Assembly (NCBI GenBank): GCA_002689345.1
Contig: NZFU01000010.1
Coordinates: 1 to 33,454 of the forward strand
Direction: 5' to 3'
From: Methanobacteriota archaeon
GTDB lineage: Archaea > Thermoplasmatota > Poseidoniia > Poseidoniales > Poseidoniaceae
Length of the DNA: 33,454 nucleotides
Shown in pieces: positions 8,672-21,756 of the stretch. The position numbers and the translations under genes are program-made. Numbering within the stretch: the stretch's first letter is position 1; the number at the start of each line of letters is the position of its first letter. The notes under the pieces were generated by a model, which was given only the letters and a program-made list of their open reading frames with translations, had not been told where the DNA came from and did no database searches.

Positions 8672-11200
8672 TTATTTATTCAAACCAGCGTGTCCAGGAG
8701 TATCTGCACCATCTCCCTTCAATATTGTCGTAATTGTGCTTTGTCCAAATACGAGACAAGTAATCCAGAATAAATAAACAACAGACGAAAATCCAATCAT
8801 TAACAATACTTGTGGCCTATACATTATCAGCCACATATTCGAAATATTTGTCACAAACATGTAGAACAATAATATGATTGCTGGGAATAAATCAAAACCA
8901 GATTTCGACCAAGTATTGACTACCATTGTACATGAAATGGCAAGAGGTAATGTGACCATTGATACCATCCATAATATCGGTGGGTCTACTCTTGCGCCAA
9001 AGAATCCTCCCGTGACGATGATTTTGCTTGGGTTGAATTCGATTAATCCCATAGGTGTGAGTAGTGAATAGTGCGTCCATACAATACACAGTAACAACCA
9101 TGGCATCAATCCTAGTACAATTTTTCTACAGGACTCTAATAACAAGTCTTCTTTTGGTTCATTCAGCCACTGAAGATTGTTTTCGACAAATCCAGGTATA
9201 GTTCTTACCAACAATAGGGTTGTCATCGCTGGCCAGGCACCCCATGTAGGAATAATTATGCAAAGGGCAAACATTTCCAACCAGCTTGATCTAAATGGAG
9301 ATTTGATGGCATAAGGGTGCTTGATACGCACCATAACCATTTGAATAACACAAAACAAGATCCATAATATGACAATTCTATCAATCCACGAACTTCCAAG
9401 AGAATGTAGGAATATTGTAGCAGAGACTGGAATCGAAAATCTAAGCCATTGCCAATTTTTTTCACCGAAATATATTCTATCTGCAATGAACATACAAAGA
9501 TTAGCCAATATGAGAGCAGCAATCAAATTGTCAGTCATAAAAGATGTGATTATGTGTTGCCAAATTTTGTAGAAAAAGTCGATACTAGTCAATTCAAACA
9601 ATGATGTGTTCACAATCAATCCAATGTAATAGTTGACGATGGTCCATATTGGCAACAGGATTAGAATCATGAAAACAAAAGAGTTCAATCTATTTTTCTG
9701 AGGGGTTTTTGATTTACGAAGATAAATAATCATAGTTACACAGAATACCAACAATACTGGTGACAATCTACTATCTGGTTGCCATAATGTTACTGCTAGA
9801 AGCATGTACGGTGACCAATGTGGTAAATTCGGAGGACTATAATCTTCAGATTTTGATTTGAAGAATACAAGGTAAAACGCCATACCTGTTACAGCAATTA
9901 GAGATAGAATCCCAAATGATTTCCTCAACCAACCATTGGTCCAAAAAGTGACCTCAATGTCATAAAACCAAATGTAATGAGTCATAATTAGTATACAGTA
10001 TCCCACCGATAAGGACAATATTTTGTATGAATTATCTTGAATAGCCTTTTTCCCATTCAAGTTTTTATATGCTAAAAATGCGATACCGACAAAGGGAATT
10101 ATTGAAAGTAACATGTCTAAATTAGAAGGGGTTTGAGTGAGGCTAGGTAATGCTCCCCATTCGATTGAATCTTCTGATAATTCCGCATAAGGGTAGCCGT
10201 TTTCCTCTAACCAAATCTGCCGCTCCATCTGAGCCTGCCAATTCCATTGTTCCAATGCCGACGAATGCTCGTCAGTTAACGAAAATAGATCCAACGGGAT
10301 TCTAGAATCTGCTGAAACAGGGAATGGTAAGTCTAACAATACCAGAGGTATTGATGCAATATCCCTTTGCACAATATCCTGAACTCCTCCTGCTTCTACA
10401 CCTGCTCCATAAAGTAGCAAATTGACTTTCATGGCCATATCTCCTGTACTGATTGCATGCCCACCGGATTCAGTCATTCCATGATCAGCGGTAATCATCA
10501 GCGTCCAATTGTCTGGGACTCTTTCACGAATCGAGTTTAGTTGATTGTCTAAGTGTAACATTTTATTCTGATATTTTTCACTTTTAACTCCAAACATGTG
10601 GCCAGCATGGTCAGTACCGCCCAGGTGGGCAACCATCAAATCATGTTCTTGTTCATCCATCCATGTATTTACATTAGCAATAATCTTGTCATCTGCATCG
10701 TATACATCACTGAAACCGGAATCATATACTGTTTCATGAATGAACCTTTCATCAGTAAACAAATTTGCCCAAACATAGAATCCAGTAAATGCTACACTCA
10801 TATTTTTGTCGAGTGCATAATGGAATGCATCGTCCTTCCCATCGTATTGGATAGCCCAATTTCTCATGGCATCTATCGGTGAAGAGTGGATGCCAGTTGA
10901 CATTTCTTTTGTACAAGGTCCCGTCAGTGTAATTTCACTAGTCGAAACATTTGCCTTGGCCCCATAATCAGTCCAGTTAGCCAAATTAGGCATATATTCT
11001 GGATTGTCCATGACGTATGCGGGTAATCCATCTAGTACGATCAGCAATACTCCATCGGAAACTCTGTCATGAATTTCGGGTGGTTCGACAGTTAGGTCTT
11101 GTGGAGATTCGGGGCCATTAAAGATACTAACTCCGGTGAATAATATTGGTAAAATAGCCGGCAATAAAATTGCTAGAATTGTAATTCTCTTACTTAACAT
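8672..11200 (-). CDS. Alkaline-phosphatase-superfamily enzyme with C-terminal polytopic membrane domain, resembling GPI ethanolamine phosphate transferase (PIG-N/O/G type)
   Basis: ORF track starts at 11284, but that start lies inside the tRNA; MLSKRITILAILLPAILPILF at 11200 is the likely start (about 842 aa). Metal-site motifs GVLLIVLDGLPA, LMVAHLGGTDHAGHMFGVKSEKYQNKMLHLDNQL, LMITADHGMTESGGHA, followed by many hydrophobic helices. Confidence 0.75.
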   Translation of the reverse strand: MLSKRITILAILLPAILPILFTGVSIFNGPESPQDLTVEPPEIHDRVSDGVLLIVLDGLPAYVMDNPEYMPNLANWTDYGAKANVSTSEITLTGPCTKEMSTGIHSSPIDAMRNWAIQYDGKDDAFHYALDKNMSVAFTGFYVWANLFTDERFIHETVYDSGFSDVYDADDKIIANVNTWMDEQEHDLMVAHLGGTDHAGHMFGVKSEKYQNKMLHLDNQLNSIRERVPDNWTLMITADHGMTESGGHAISTGDMAMKVNLLLYGAGVEAGGVQDIVQRDIASIPLVLLDLPFPVSADSRIPLDLFSLTDEHSSALEQWNWQAQMERQIWLEENGYPYAELSEDSIEWGALPSLTQTPSNLDMLLSIIPFVGIAFLAYKNLNGKKAIQDNSYKILSLSVGYCILIMTHYIWFYDIEVTFWTNGWLRKSFGILSLIAVTGMAFYLVFFKSKSEDYSPPNLPHWSPYMLLAVTLWQPDSRLSPVLLVFCVTMIIYLRKSKTPQKNRLNSFVFMILILLPIWTIVNYYIGLIVNTSLFELTSIDFFYKIWQHIITSFMTDNLIAALILANLCMFIADRIYFGEKNWQWLRFSIPVSATIFLHSLGSSWIDRIVILWILFCVIQMVMVRIKHPYAIKSPFRSSWLEMFALCIIIPTWGAWPAMTTLLLVRTIPGFVENNLQWLNEPKEDLLLESCRKIVLGLMPWLLLCIVWTHYSLLTPMGLIEFNPSKIIVTGGFFGARVDPPILWMVSMVTLPLAISCTMVVNTWSKSGFDLFPAIILLFYMFVTNISNMWLIMYRPQVLLMIGFSSVVYLFWITCLVFGQSTITTILKGDGADTPGHAGLNK

Positions 11201-11278
11201 TCTATTACCATCCGGTGGGTGAAAACAGTTGATAGAAATAGATATCGCCGTTCTAAATGCACTAAAGGCTAGATTTGG

Positions 11279-11351
11279 AGCCAACGGAGGGACTCGAACC
11301 CTCGACCGTCGGATTACAAATCCGAAGCACTACCAGCTATGCTACGTTGGC
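11279..11351 (-). tRNA. tRNA-Thr (anticodon UGU)
   Basis: Reverse strand folds by eye as GCCAACG-TA-GCA-TAGCTGGTAG-TGC-T-TCGGA-TTTGTAA-TCCGA-CGGTC-GAGGG-TTCGAGT-CCCTC-CGTTGGC-T. Perfect 7-bp acceptor, 5-bp anticodon and T stems; anticodon TGT; discriminator U. Confidence 0.96.
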
Positions 11352-15511: not shown

Positions 15512-16247
15512 GAATATCCCAAATAATTGCTGCTTCAAACAGTATAATTATTGGAATTGCTACTAGGAATAGAGATAGTGGGTCTGGAGGGGAAAATGCA
15601 GCCCCTAGTACAAATGTTGCAAACCAAATGTGCTTACGGTAAGCGAGTAATGATGTCCTATCAATCGCTCCTGTTCTTATTGACAGTAGTGTGATTAATG
15701 GGGCTTGGAACCCAATAGCACACGCCAAACACAAACTAACAATAAATCCGACAAAAGATGAAAGTCGCCATTCTGTTGATAGTCCAGCAGCCTGTGCATC
15801 GGTTGCTAAATATTCAAGCAGCATTGGTGTGAGAAGATACCATGAATAGATTAGGCCAGTAATTGCTAATGAGATTGAAATCATCACAGCTAAGACAACA
15901 CTCGATGCAGGTCGCGGGCTCTTTTTGGCCAAACCACTTTTCCACGCTCCATCAATTATGAGAGCGAATAATGCCAATCCTGCACCTAACCATGCTCCAA
16001 CTCTTACTTGAATCATAATGAATTCTACGGGAGTGAGAATAATTATGTTGACATCATCAGGTAGTAAGCCTACATTTAGTAGCCAATCTACAACCCTGTG
16101 CGCTAAAGGTATTCCAATTACCAATCCAAGTAAAAACAAGGACACAATCAACTTAATTCGAGTACGGATGTGGTTGGAAACCTGTTTGAATAGATTTTTG
16201 ATTTCAGGATTGATAACAGGTTTGTCGTCCATCATTCTTCCTCCCAT
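15480..16247 (-). CDS. tatC: Twin-arginine translocase subunit TatC
   Basis: 255 aa; multi-TM with TPVEFIMIQVRVGAWLGAGLALFALI, YSWYLLTPMLLEYL, SSFVGFIVSLCLACAIGFQAPLITLLSIRTGAI, YRKHIWFATFVLGAAFSPPDPLSLFLVAIPIIILFEAAI. Confidence 0.92.
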   Translation of the reverse strand: MGGRMMDDKPVINPEIKNLFKQVSNHIRTRIKLIVSLFLLGLVIGIPLAHRVVDWLLNVGLLPDDVNIIILTPVEFIMIQVRVGAWLGAGLALFALIIDGAWKSGLAKKSPRPASSVVLAVMISISLAITGLIYSWYLLTPMLLEYLATDAQAAGLSTEWRLSSFVGFIVSLCLACAIGFQAPLITLLSIRTGAIDRTSLLAYRKHIWFATFVLGAAFSPPDPLSLFLVAIPIIILFEAAIIWDILTGESKSANA

Positions 16248-17701
16248 AGGTGGGACGGGGTTGAATCAATTAATGAGCGTCCGGCTTGCTTTAGTCGCTT
16301 GAGGCGATGAATTACGAAACCAGTCATCCACATAGAAGGAATCGATAGGGCGATTGCTTTCCACATTTCATCATCACCATAATCGTTGATAATTTTGACT
16401 TCAATGACATCATCGGTTTTTTCTGCAGAGTTGTGAAGAATAACCAAATGCCATAATTTCGTTTCGGTTATTTTGTAATCATATGTTTCACCAGGCAGAA
16501 CCTCAATAACAGTTTGATTTGCCTCTAATTCTGACCAATTGATTACTCCCTGGTCCATCGCTGAAACAGATTCTTCAACCCAAAGGACTGTGAATTTTAA
16601 TGTTAATGAATCATCTAAATTTGTAATAGATGTTGTTATTTCTTCATCAAATTGTAGCGGTGTGAGTATTTCATAGGTTGAATCCCCTCCTCCTAATCGC
16701 ATTGAGACTCTATCGTCAATGTTGTTTTCTTGATAGGAAACTGCTGATAGAACTAAGAATAATAATAGCAGAGTAGCGGCACCTTCCCAGAACGTATGAT
16801 TCATAACTTTCTTTTTTGTTACACCTTTGAACATAGAACCGTGGTCATTACGCATTCTTGGTTGTAGATGGTGGATAAATAATGCCCCTATACCTCCTAC
16901 AATCATTCCCAGTGGGATATCGACTAGCCAGTGTATACCTAGGTAAGCAATTGTGAAAATGAATAGTATTGTATTGATGACGATAAAAAGGTGATATGGC
17001 CAGTGTGTCCATTCACGCATTTTGATATTCTTCTCTTTACAATGCAGCCAATTTAGAAGAATCATTCCGAATGGAATTGCTACGTGTAATGAAGGAACCG
17101 CATTATCCAGAGGGTCATGCGTTGCATAGAATACTGTGTACCACCCATCATGATACAACAAAGCATCCATTCCTGGGATCCATGATGACGTAACTTCAAC
17201 ATTGAAGAATAGGTAATATGGTACAGCTAAGGCATAAATTAGAAGATAATTCAATGTGACCTTATCGGTCATGTCCCTCTCGCCTACATAGGCAAAATAG
17301 ACGGTTGTAATGTAAATTAAGAACAGATAAATAAACAGGTAATGGAAATTTAGGAATTCAGTTAACCAAGCGTTTTCAAAAGTCTGCTGAACCCATAATG
17401 TTGCATTTCCTTCAAGGGAATATATCCATTCAGTCCAGTTGCCAGTCCTGATTTTAATGGGTTCATTTAGGTCATCAGTTAATGCCTTCCACTTGATAAT
17501 GAAAAGATATCCTAATGCGTGTAGATAGTATCTTTTTTCATGAATAACCTGGAACATTTTTCCAAAAGGTGTCCGAGTTTCCTTTCTGCCCAGAGTGAAT
17601 AGCCAACAGATAGCCGGTGTGAGGATTAGGATTAATCCCATCATCACCGTGTACGGGCTCATGTTAATGCTCCCATAGCCTATGGCTATGAGCGTTTTCA
17701 C
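16232..17701 (-). CDS. PAP2-superfamily (PAP2_3/AUR1-like) membrane phosphatase/transferase
   Basis: 489 aa; NAVPSLHVAIPFGMILLNWLH and AYLGIHWLVDIPLGMIVGGIGALFIHHL match PAP2 C2/C3 motifs; later TM, extracytoplasmic domain, TM. Start is GTG overlapping the upstream TGA (GTGA), or internal ATG at 17662. Confidence 0.8.
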   Translation of the reverse strand: MKTLIAIGYGSINMSPYTVMMGLILILTPAICWLFTLGRKETRTPFGKMFQVIHEKRYYLHALGYLFIIKWKALTDDLNEPIKIRTGNWTEWIYSLEGNATLWVQQTFENAWLTEFLNFHYLFIYLFLIYITTVYFAYVGERDMTDKVTLNYLLIYALAVPYYLFFNVEVTSSWIPGMDALLYHDGWYTVFYATHDPLDNAVPSLHVAIPFGMILLNWLHCKEKNIKMREWTHWPYHLFIVINTILFIFTIAYLGIHWLVDIPLGMIVGGIGALFIHHLQPRMRNDHGSMFKGVTKKKVMNHTFWEGAATLLLLFLVLSAVSYQENNIDDRVSMRLGGGDSTYEILTPLQFDEEITTSITNLDDSLTLKFTVLWVEESVSAMDQGVINWSELEANQTVIEVLPGETYDYKITETKLWHLVILHNSAEKTDDVIEVKIINDYGDDEMWKAIALSIPSMWMTGFVIHRLKRLKQAGRSLIDSTPSHLWEEE

Positions 17702-19464
17702 TCAGAGGAGGCTGAACGGTTTCTTTCATCCTCTGCTTTGGCTACTGCAATACCATCTTCAACATCGACCTTGCGCAGAATTATGACTCCTGCAATAATC
17801 AATGTAGATAGTGCGAAAATACCGACTCTTGAGTCAAACCACACAGTCATCAGTGAGTAAATTAGAGGACCAAGTAAAGCTGCTACTTTTCCAAAGAATC
17901 CGAAGAAACCGAAGAACTCGGCAGACCTTGTTTCAGGGACCATCTGTCCAAACATTGAGCGAGCAAGTCCTTGAGATCCACCTAGTAGGGCTCCTGCAAA
18001 TACGCCCAGTAGTAGGAATTGGAAGAATACGGTCATTCCAAGTGGTGCCCAAACCCAAGAGCGTACAGTTTCAGGGATGAAATCAAGCGTGCCATCTCCA
18101 AGGTTAGATGGATGATCTATCCCCACTCCTGTTTGTCCTCCTAATTCACCCTCTTCAACACTATATGAGAATCGGGATTCATCCATTGAGGCATCTAGTG
18201 TAGCAAGGTTTTCAGCAGTCAAATCTACTGCCATTGGAATCGGCTTACCATCCTCGTCAAAGGCCCATTTGACTGCATATCCTTGCCTTTTCACATCATC
18301 ATTTTCTTCAACAGGTAAAATATCTTCATTATCTAATGCCCATATTTGTTCATCATCATCTGGAAGTGCTGCTATGTTGTTCACATCTTCTCTGGCTTCT
18401 ACAACATATGTGCCATTTTCTTCATCCCAGGTGTATTGGATGTCGAATTCATCATGGTTTTCGAGTTCTAGTGGTGCGAATGAGAGCGCCCCTACTATGA
18501 CAAAACACCAACATACTAATGAAAATTGCAGCGCCTTCTTAGTGCCCCATTTTTCTGCTAATTTAGTAAATCCAATTGCTGCAGGAGCGGCTACGAATTG
18601 TATAATTACAATCGTCACAATCAGTCCGGTTAATGTTAGTCCAAGAACAACGACTCCGAATACTCCTGCTAGAGCAGTAACTGAATTTATTCCATCGATA
18701 AAACAGAAGTAAGCAATCATGTAAATGAATAGTGTTCTGAAACTCTTGATGCCTTTCAAGGTAGAATATACTTCACCAAGAGCCATCTTAGTGGAGGCTA
18801 CCAATCCCATTGGTTCCATTTCATCTTCAATATGTGGTTCAGGTACTAGGTTGAAGGTCATTTGAGCGAATCCAAGCCACCATAGTCCAGAGGAGGCCAT
18901 GACGAATGGAATCACCCACGACCCATCAAGAGTTTGCACCATTACCAAGTGAACAACAAGTAGGATGCCACCACCTAGGTAACCTGCTGCAAATGCCTTG
19001 TTGGAAATCGAATCCATTTCAGTATCTTTGCCCATGTGTGGAAGAAGTGCATTGTAGAATACTCCTGCTCCATTCAGGCCAACATTCGCAATCATGAACA
19101 TAATTAGGGCCCAAATCCACCCCATTGACACACCAAGGAATGGGGATGCTGCTAACAGAACACAAGAAATCGCACCAACCCATGTCAATATTCTGAGCCA
19201 CCACATTTTGATCATTCTACGGTCGGCAATAACTCCCAAAGATGGCGCACATAGTGCAACAATCAGGGCTCCAACCATCACTGCTCCTGAAAACATAGCA
19301 TCAGCAGTCCATTCTGAGCCAAGGAATTTAGTTGAAATTCCGTTTGCCTCAGCAAATAGGTAAGCGAACCATGCTGGGAATACAGCAGTTGTTACTGATG
19401 TTTCAAATGCACTCTTTCCCCAATCATATGCACAATATCCTCGTACGCGTTGGTCTTCTGCCAT
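17698..19464 (-). CDS. MFS transporter, UMF1/Atg22-like, with large acidic inter-TM insert
   Basis: 588 aa; RGYCAYDWGKSAFETSVTTAVFPAWFAYLFAEANG, GVIADRRMIKMWW, LLGGSQGLARSMFGQMVPETRSAEFFGFFGFFGKVAALLGPLIYS. Confidence 0.85.
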   Translation of the reverse strand: MAEDQRVRGYCAYDWGKSAFETSVTTAVFPAWFAYLFAEANGISTKFLGSEWTADAMFSGAVMVGALIVALCAPSLGVIADRRMIKMWWLRILTWVGAISCVLLAASPFLGVSMGWIWALIMFMIANVGLNGAGVFYNALLPHMGKDTEMDSISNKAFAAGYLGGGILLVVHLVMVQTLDGSWVIPFVMASSGLWWLGFAQMTFNLVPEPHIEDEMEPMGLVASTKMALGEVYSTLKGIKSFRTLFIYMIAYFCFIDGINSVTALAGVFGVVVLGLTLTGLIVTIVIIQFVAAPAAIGFTKLAEKWGTKKALQFSLVCWCFVIVGALSFAPLELENHDEFDIQYTWDEENGTYVVEAREDVNNIAALPDDDEQIWALDNEDILPVEENDDVKRQGYAVKWAFDEDGKPIPMAVDLTAENLATLDASMDESRFSYSVEEGELGGQTGVGIDHPSNLGDGTLDFIPETVRSWVWAPLGMTVFFQFLLLGVFAGALLGGSQGLARSMFGQMVPETRSAEFFGFFGFFGKVAALLGPLIYSLMTVWFDSRVGIFALSTLIIAGVIILRKVDVEDGIAVAKAEDERNRSASSE

Positions 19465-19555
19465 AGTTGACGAGTTACATTTTGCTTTATGATGGTTGGG
19501 CAGGATTTGATTTCCGGCACATGATTCAATAACAACATCATATCAAGCGGCTTCA

Positions 19556-20569
19556 ATGGTGTACACTCCACCACCTGAAAACACGCATGCTTCCTTGGTG
19601 GAAGCTATGCAAAAGATGGATGGTGTGGAATTCGACCTACGTCTCACTGCTGATGACCAATTGGTTGTGCATCACGACCACATAGTTTCTATTCCAAATG
19701 AAATGCTAGATGGGCGTTCAAAAATTGTTGAAGAATGGGATTTAGCTGATCTGGAAAAGGTTGGTTTTTGCTCTTTTGAGAGGTTAATGTCTGACAAGGA
19801 ATGGCTAATTCCTTGGCAAGAGCACTCAAAAGTGGCATGCTTGGAAATCAAAAGAAGTCTACCTGTCATTGCAAAAGACCCTACTTCTCGGATGGCACGA
19901 ATAATGGAGTTAGCTAGTGAAATGGTTGACGAGGCGGGGATTCATCAACAAGCTGCGGTTTTCTATGCCTTCCATCGACCTATGGCAAAGGTGGCTAAAT
20001 TATCAGGATCTGATCGGCCATGGTCCAGGTTGCTTCCAATTGTACCTAGGACGGGGTCACATAATAGCAAAAGATTACGAGCGTTACCAGAGTTTTTTGC
20101 TAACTCGTTTAATCGATTACTAAGGTCCCAGAGGAATTCTGGTGCTCCCATGATGCCATGTGCAGTAGATTATTTCGAAGGATTCAAGCGGTATATTCAC
20201 CTTGGAAGGCCAGTAGGTCTCAAAGGAAGACAATTGAGACGTTTAGAAAAAATCAAGGCTGATTTCCCTGTTTATGTTTGGCCAGGTCACCCTTATCTGG
20301 AGAGAGATTTACTGGATGCAGGTTTGTCTATTTTGACTGATTATGCTGACCCTGAACTGAAGTTACCATGTGGTAGTAATAGATGGTTAAGGCCTGCAAC
20401 CATGCCACTGACAGATGACCAGTGGCTTGGATTGAAGAATGGAATTATTCCCGAAGATATTGCTCCATGGCATGAATTAAGTGATGAGCAATTAGGTTGG
20501 GATGCTGTAAGAATCATCGGTCACAGAGGTTGTGGAAAAACCTCGAGACCAGTTATTCAATCAATATGA
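19556..20569 (+). CDS. Glycerophosphodiester phosphodiesterase (GDPD)-like protein, apparently circularly permuted
   Basis: 337 aa; PPPENTHASLVEAMQKMDGVEFDLRLTADDQLVVHHDHIV at the N-terminus, CLEIKRSLP, VFYAFHRPMAKVAKL, FPVYVWPGHPYLERDLLDAGLSILTDYADPE, and C-terminal VRIIGHRGCGKTSRP. Confidence 0.8.
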   Translation: MVYTPPPENTHASLVEAMQKMDGVEFDLRLTADDQLVVHHDHIVSIPNEMLDGRSKIVEEWDLADLEKVGFCSFERLMSDKEWLIPWQEHSKVACLEIKRSLPVIAKDPTSRMARIMELASEMVDEAGIHQQAAVFYAFHRPMAKVAKLSGSDRPWSRLLPIVPRTGSHNSKRLRALPEFFANSFNRLLRSQRNSGAPMMPCAVDYFEGFKRYIHLGRPVGLKGRQLRRLEKIKADFPVYVWPGHPYLERDLLDAGLSILTDYADPELKLPCGSNRWLRPATMPLTDDQWLGLKNGIIPEDIAPWHELSDEQLGWDAVRIIGHRGCGKTSRPVIQSI

Positions 20570-21756
20570 CGAAGAGTTTGTTCTTCAGCGATGTATTTTG
20601 GACGGTAGATTGGGATTCCCTTTCCATTTCTCATCACAGTTCTTTCGTCTACAATTTGTGCTCCAATTCCTGCAACCCGCGCCCATCCAAAGAAGGTGGT
20701 GTAGTACTCAGCATCTTGTAGCCCAACATAGTTGAGTAGAGTTCCGCTAGCGATATCGACATTTGCATTAGGGTTTCGAATCTTTGGATTTTCAGATAGT
20801 ACCATCGGTGCAACTTGGCGTAACACACGAATGATTCTGAAGTATTCATCATCAGGGCAAATCTCTTCTCCCAATGCGAATTGAGCAGACGCCCTTGGGT
20901 CTTCAGTTCGTAGAACTGCATGTCCAAATCCAAATACAGGACGCTTTGCTTCCAATTCACCGCGAACAAATCTTTCTACTTCAGCAGGGTCTGAAGTTCC
21001 GATTCTCTTTACGAATTCAAAACACGATTGATTAGCACGCCCATGCAATGGGCCAGAAAGAGCATTCATAGCTCCAGCCATCGATGAATAAACAGTAGCA
21101 TGGCCACTAGCGACGGCCTTGCCTGCAAATGTGGAGAGATTACCTCCTCCATGGTCCATGTGTAACACTAGGTAGGTTGACAGGACACGATTCATTACAG
21201 CATTGTCTACATTGTCAAGATCTAGAGTTTTGGTAAATCGCCCTACCAGTGGGAGAGAGAGGTCGTCTTCAGGAATATTCTCAATTCGGTTTTCCCGGTA
21301 GCGGAAAATCAACCCCATCAATCGAGGCATTCGAGCAATGAGATTCATGGCATCTTCTCGCCAATCATCGACTCCACCTAACATTCCAAGTGAATGAATG
21401 CCTATTGAAAGCCAATCCATCGGATGGCCATCTTTTGGAAGAGTAGCTAGTATTTGTTCAAGGCCATCGGGAATTTCCCCACGAGATTGCAAGTCATTTC
21501 TGAACTCAACAGATTGTTCAATATTTGGCAATTCTTTGTGAAATAGAAGATATACGATGTCTTCGGGTGACATCATGGCTAATTCACTAATTGGATATCC
21601 ACAGTAATGAACCCCCTCGTCCGGAGTGACATATGATGTTCTGCAAGTACCGACAGGGACCCCTCGCAAACCTGTATTCAGGTGGGCAGTGGTCAAGTCT
21701 AGAAGGGACTCTTCATCACTCATGATTTTCCACCAAGCACAGGGAAAAGCCACCAC
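20557..21756 (-). CDS. gltA: Citrate synthase
   Basis: 399 aa; GLRGVPVGTCRTSYVTPDEGVHYCGYPISEL, LDHGG-type segment VLHMDHGGGNLSTFAGKAVASG, GPLHGRANQ, FGFGHAVLRTEDPRA, PNANVDIASGTLLNYVGL. Likely start is the internal MSDEESLLDL. Confidence 0.95.
   Translation of the reverse strand: MVAFPCAWWKIMSDEESLLDLTTAHLNTGLRGVPVGTCRTSYVTPDEGVHYCGYPISELAMMSPEDIVYLLFHKELPNIEQSVEFRNDLQSRGEIPDGLEQILATLPKDGHPMDWLSIGIHSLGMLGGVDDWREDAMNLIARMPRLMGLIFRYRENRIENIPEDDLSLPLVGRFTKTLDLDNVDNAVMNRVLSTYLVLHMDHGGGNLSTFAGKAVASGHATVYSSMAGAMNALSGPLHGRANQSCFEFVKRIGTSDPAEVERFVRGELEAKRPVFGFGHAVLRTEDPRASAQFALGEEICPDDEYFRIIRVLRQVAPMVLSENPKIRNPNANVDIASGTLLNYVGLQDAEYYTTFFGWARVAGIGAQIVDERTVMRNGKGIPIYRPKYIAEEQTLRHID

Follow-up and report, generated by a model that had tools for sequence, protein, structure and literature searches.

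Glycerophosphodiester phosphodiesterases (GDPDs) are common enzymes of phospholipid degradation. They carry the motif HR(X)nEN(X)nExD(X)nHD, in which His17 is the base and His59 the acid, and the metal ligands are Glu44, Asp46, and a further Glu downstream (PMC4926365, PMC5095149). Canonical members (PF03009; 2PZ0 of T. tengcongensis, 4OEC of T. kodakarensis, and 7E0V of P. furiosus) share the barrel fold and the HR, EN, ExD, HD, ExK, W, and TD residues with the protein described here and are its top structural and sequence matches, with a Pfam score above the cut-off. The present family differs from them in its C-terminal HRG strand, its length of 337-400 aa, and an extra connector and insert. 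The lysoplasmalogen-specific phospholipase D (7YMQ), a Foldseek match, shares the GDPD fold and the site of two His and a metal, but has the canonical order. The GDPD-like SMase D/PLD lineage is likewise a derived GDPD-fold branch with a C-terminal motif, but this motif is a stabilising plug, unlike the HRG strand, and PMC6299612 mentions no permutation. Among (beta/alpha)8 enzymes, natural circular permutation is known from GH70 glucansucrases, which are a permuted GH13 barrel (PMC4919382); these belong to an unrelated enzyme class and their chain starts at alpha3, whereas the start predicted for the permuted GDPD is in the beta1-alpha1 loop.

Literature searches for permuted GDPDs found none, the PDB matches contained none that was recognised, and the Pfam and NCBIfam searches showed no family of their own for them. 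As far as we have seen, the enzyme family and the phenomenon are known, and their combination, fixed across an order, is new. Natural permutations whose cut separates two catalytic motifs and which have become fixed across a whole archaeal order appear to be uncommon.

The protein is very probably a metal-dependent glycerophosphodiester phosphodiesterase, a (beta/alpha)8 barrel with a circularly permuted chain. Its motif order is an old and presumably working natural circular permutation fixed across the marine archaeal order Poseidoniales, as opposed to a sequencing error. A permutation keeping all catalytic residues had been proposed by the original prediction, and order-wide conservation, profile rotation by hhalign with controls, and two AlphaFold models now support this.

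Gene and motif order

The window, which is the whole stretch of 33,454 nucleotides analysed, contains the following features of the gene.

19556..20569, + strand: predicted circularly permuted GDPD gene, 337 aa (translation and ORF listing, Pfam, alignment, AlphaFold2, hhalign, motif-order count)
19577..19582, + strand: E8-N9, the "EN" of HR..EN..ExD..HD, near the N-terminus (alignment; motif definition in PMC4926365)
19628..19636, + strand: E25-x-D27, predicted metal ligands, E44/D46 of 2PZ0 (invariant; 2PZ0 alignment; ligands in PMC5095149)
19673..19678, + strand: H40-D41, predicted second catalytic His, H59 of 2PZ0 (H40 invariant; 2PZ0 alignment; PMC4926365)
19844..19852, + strand: E97-x-K99, predicted third metal ligand and substrate Lys (invariant; hhalign; PMC4926365, PMC5095149)
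20279..20281, + strand: W242 of strand VWP, WTVN in canonical enzymes (invariant; hhalign)
20339..20341, + strand: D262 of LTD, final strand before the connector (invariant; AlphaFold2; hhalign)
20348..20509, + strand: connector, residues 265-318, linking the last canonical strand with the relocated one (alignment, AlphaFold2, hhalign)
20510..20530, + strand: relocated beta-1, R319-I-I-G-H323-R324-G325, predicted first catalytic His and Arg (alignment, two AlphaFold2 models, motif order, hhalign, codons)
20531..20566, + strand: C-terminal tail CGKTSRPVIQSI after HRG (motif-order count)

By translation and ORF listing, the ORF of 337 aa runs from the ATG at 19556 to the TGA ending at 20569; the protein begins with MVYTPPPENT (N-terminus, MVYTPPPENTHASLVEAMQKMDGVEFDLRLTADDQLVVHHD) and ends with DAVRIIGHRGCGKTSRPVIQSI before the stop, the ending being also given as RIIGHRGCGKTSRPVIQSI. 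Translation confirmed the position of the upstream in-frame TGA (19508-19510) and found no in-frame HRG between it and the ATG, as had been noted from the sequence. The motifs follow in the order EN, E.D, HD, E.K, W, and TD, with HRG at the end. The HRG core had been placed at 20507-20551; the C-terminal HRG is real, but this range covers VRIIGHRGCGKTSRP, and the HRG codons themselves occupy 20522-20530. Across the permuted family, 4-16 residues follow HRG. Conserved RWxRPATxPL and PW motifs are found in the connector, to which hhalign aligned no canonical counterpart.

A Pfam search of the protein gave no family besides GDPD (PF03009; residues 7-70, profile positions 9-69, 38.3 bits against a cut-off of 23.6), and the match misses exactly the first profile positions, which are the site of the HRG strand. 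When the sequence was rotated, the profile was covered from position 1 and the score reached only 42.0 bits. Since profile annotation reaches just the first quarter of the protein, the permutation is easily overlooked.

Rotation of the chain and predicted structure

The profile of the permuted family was compared by hhalign with a reference profile built on 36 archaeal GDPDs of canonical order, all from the phylum. In native order, family columns 20-289 aligned to template positions 16-228 and the tail columns 380-391 aligned separately to positions 4-15; with the tail moved to the front, template positions 5-228 were matched. Homology improves on this rotation, from a score of 124.4 to 148.3, and spans the old termini, both of which are marks of circular permutation: for a doubled profile, one continuous alignment (columns 380-671, score 148.2) crosses the C-to-N junction. 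As controls, 100 column-shuffled tails placed in front gave a mean of 125.7 (sd 2.3, maximum 134.4) and 85 other protein segments a maximum of 125.7; the rotation gain is about 10 sd above the shuffled tails, and it was seen separately in the f1-rich and f2-rich halves of the family alignment. Only after rotation were canonical GDPDs matched along their whole length. Rotation of single sequences against a local HMM is a weaker test; it was uninformative for the window protein, which showed no gain (40.0 to 37.3 bits), and at the family level the signal was weak, with 34 of 55 members gaining against 5 of 55 controls.

AlphaFold2 modelled the window protein from the 55-sequence alignment with a mean pLDDT of 95.4 and a pTM of 0.93. 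Strands of the predicted barrel are E23-30, E93-98, E134-138, E156-158, E200-203, E239-242, E258-261, and E320-323, the eighth being RIIGHRG, and E36-38 is an extra short strand outside these eight. The model of a homologue with 38% identity (L093; pLDDT 94.3, pTM 0.93) has the same strand pattern, with E363-366 last. An eight-stranded TIM barrel, as in GDPDs, is accordingly predicted in both models, and in both confident models the C-terminal HRG forms the eighth strand. The number of strands and the confidence of the global model imply that this strand should occupy the beta1 slot. In Foldseek searches against PDB, the top matches were GDPDs and relatives of the GDPD fold. Their TM-scores, computed in order on the query, were 0.35-0.51, values that are expected to be modest if the order differs, though they are not specific to that. 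Against viral predictions, the significant named matches were again GDPDs with modest TM-scores.

Domain swapping often involves strands at a chain end. In the present family the HRG strand lies there and might complete the barrel of a neighbouring subunit in a swapped oligomer. We consider this very improbable; the models of the monomer place the strand with high confidence.

By its letters, GHRGCGKT (window 20519-20542) fits the Walker A pattern GxxxxGK[ST], and it could be read as a P-loop-like or chance motif on a GDPD relative without beta1. This reading is highly improbable, since the tail aligns to the canonical HRG strand with the above gain on rotation and the models make the C-terminal segment the eighth strand. 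A P-loop NTPase was rejected because Walker A is not conserved, the GKT part varying across the family (GEHH, GDTD, GVTD, GSSH), and a chance motif because HRG is invariant and is placed by the hhalign alignment, the rotation gain, and the models. For motif-based annotation, the stretch is a trap.

Conservation and origin of the permuted order

The motif order was counted in 100 distinct stop-bounded complete homologous ORFs from Poseidoniales. HRG lies within the last 45 residues in 99 of them and upstream of the E.D block, at the N-terminus, in none, so the family departs from other GDPDs in not having HR on a first, N-terminal strand, and it retains the conserved HR, EN, ExD, and HD motifs (E8, N9, and D41 in at least 90% of the alignment). 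An ORF beginning after HRG and ending in HRG, as originally described, is therefore genuine and its order is shared by close homologues; close orthologues with an N-terminal HRG, which had been named as evidence to the contrary, were looked for among these ORFs, and there were none. In the family alignment (55 sequences, down to 30% identity with the window protein, with L007 left out), D22, E25, D27, H40, E97, K99, W242, D262, R276, R319, G322, H323, R324, G325, and G327 are among the invariant residues. Every synonymous codon of His, Arg, and Gly occurs at HRG across the homologues, as selection on the protein predicts. Homologues are present in 92 of 99 relatives, and in a search of the class (table count) 165 of the 174 genomes belonging to the two families of this order had matches with E of about 1e-74 or lower.

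The genes around the GDPD gene in the window are the following.

16232..17701, - strand: PAP2-family protein (ORF listing; loci comparison)
17698..19464, - strand: Atg22-like MFS transporter, divergent neighbour (ORF listing; loci comparison)
20557..21756, - strand: citrate synthase, convergent, overlapping the GDPD 3' end (ORF listing; loci comparison)

The overlap with citrate synthase is 13 nt (20557-20569), just past the HRG tail, and in most of the Poseidoniales loci read citrate synthase adjoins the permuted gene convergently. On the divergent side, the neighbour is the Atg22-like MFS gene in the genus of the window, several other genera of family f1, and most of f2, and it is directly the PAP2 gene in several other f1 genera. 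The recurrence of the gene in one and the same position speaks for vertical descent rather than misassembly. Scanning for promoters and terminators gave counts within about one sd of chance.

Because the window comes from a fragmented MAG (1.68 Mb, 74 contigs, 77% complete), a normal gene might have been rearranged or truncated locally, or the HRG might belong elsewhere. The chance of such an artefact is practically negligible, since the permuted order recurs in the 99 ORFs, which come from many MAGs, a one-contig assembly (G036), and records such as AH-273-F07 and AG-404-K16, with conserved neighbour genes across loci. Misassembly was rejected because the homologues share the order.

The only homologue without a C-terminal HRG is that of genome G061 (L105/L168), where the last segment is missing: the frame stops at EEQGVQP, about 30 residues early, and citrate synthase directly follows. 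Deletion, pseudogene formation, or assembly error may account for this, and apart from this gene G061 carries a GDPD-like ORF in normal order (L139). Genome G023 has three permuted copies (L006, L108, and L070), spread over two contigs. One copy shares just about 40% identity with the window protein and groups in the tree with sequences from other genera; the genome is probably a mixed MAG. A contig titled Phycisphaerae bacterium MED703 (NZFX01000059.1, L031) carries the Poseidoniales GDPD gene at 83% identity as well as a citrate synthase sharing 93% identity with that of the window, and the record is probably mislabelled or a mixed MAG.

In the sister family f3 of the same class, 15 ORFs were read, and these have 230-247 aa and an N-terminal HRG. 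A search of the phylum (392 genomes) found full-length or long matches confined to two Poseidoniales families, and the other matches listed, none with an E below 5.8e-11, lie in frames of about 250-310 aa and cover just the first 60-110 or so positions. As is expected of a circular permutation, relatives have the permuted order and the outgroup the parent order. Since the permuted matches are confined to Poseidoniales and the outgroup is normal, the permutation maps to Poseidoniales or its direct ancestor. In a tree of rotated permuted and canonical sequences, all permuted rows were on one side of a branch with an SH-aLRT of 100; the tree was built quickly and has a long branch, and it gives no firm indication of the closest canonical relative.

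The permuted enzyme appears to be the only GDPD in the assembly of the window and in most genomes sampled, and some f2 genomes additionally carry separate normal-order GDPD genes. One Poseidoniales genome without a permuted match (G074) has a normal-order GDPD of 335 aa (L214), in which a hydrophobic stretch at the N-terminus precedes the GDPD and which does not adjoin citrate synthase. Beyond the phylum, the search consisted of one single-sequence scan of genome contigs, which reaches close relatives only, together with PDB, phages, and viral contigs; viral contigs gave pattern matches and no relative, phage records gave none, and permuted GDPDs in other phyla are possible.

The permutation would have a single origin, in the ancestor of Poseidoniales or earlier, and would have come about through duplication, fusion, and trimming. 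These steps are the usual explanation offered for natural permutations, and the GH70 permutation has been explained by permutation per duplication (PMC4919382). No duplication intermediate, an ORF with HRG at both ends, was found among the 100 ORFs.

Predicted catalysis and specificity

The cut would separate the catalytic HRG from the EN motif within the beta1-alpha1 loop. As a result, the chain would begin just before EN and pass through canonical beta2 to beta8, a new connector of about 55-100 residues would follow, and the former beta1 (RIIGHRG) at the end would fill the remaining slot of the barrel. From barrel topology, both termini should face the catalytic side. E25, D27, and H40 align on E44, D46, and H59 of 2PZ0, and in the hhalign alignment the C-terminal HRG and E97-x-K99 fall on HRG and E-x-K, respectively, of the canonical enzymes. 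Since the catalytic residues align with canonical GDPD positions, we infer the normal two-step, metal-assisted hydrolysis, with H323 acting from the relocated strand. H323/R324 and H40 would form the acid-base pair, E25, D27, and E97 would bind a divalent metal, and glycerophosphodiesters or lyso-phospholipids would be hydrolysed in the cytoplasm to glycerol phosphate and an alcohol. The permuted GDPD is a clean test of barrel folding and catalysis when the first catalytic strand is made last, and the canonical GDPDs of the sister family offer a comparison.

An inactive pseudo-enzyme kept for a non-catalytic role might explain the divergence of the sequence from canonical GDPDs and the loss of HRG in genome G061, but it is very unlikely, as all residues of the catalytic motifs are invariant across the order. 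A permuted barrel of changed rather than general GDPD activity, such as a lyso-phospholipase D on ether lysolipids or an enzyme whose inserts and connector fit it to a specialised archaeal substrate, is a possibility that we hold tentatively. The family exceeds the roughly 230-260 aa of canonical archaeal GDPDs, its conserved connector contains the invariant R276, a long insert is also present, and lyso-PLD activity exists among GDPD-fold enzymes (PMC4926365, PMC5095149). In the permuted GDPD, new specificity would probably reside in the connector (265-318, of greater length in other genera) and in the insert ahead of strand 200-203, and glycerophosphodiesters from lipid turnover or scavenging, or lysolipids, are putative substrates. 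It is rather doubtful that an apparently single order-wide permutation together with the connector and insert yielded a distinct enzyme with its own specificity (e.g., for archaeal ether-lipid head groups or lysolipids), active only once its last residues are translated.

Elsewhere in the window (8672-11284, - strand), a protein of 870 aa combines a type I phosphodiesterase/metalloenzyme domain with a C-terminal half that is long and hydrophobic, an architecture resembling that of GPI-ethanolamine-phosphate-transferase-like enzymes.
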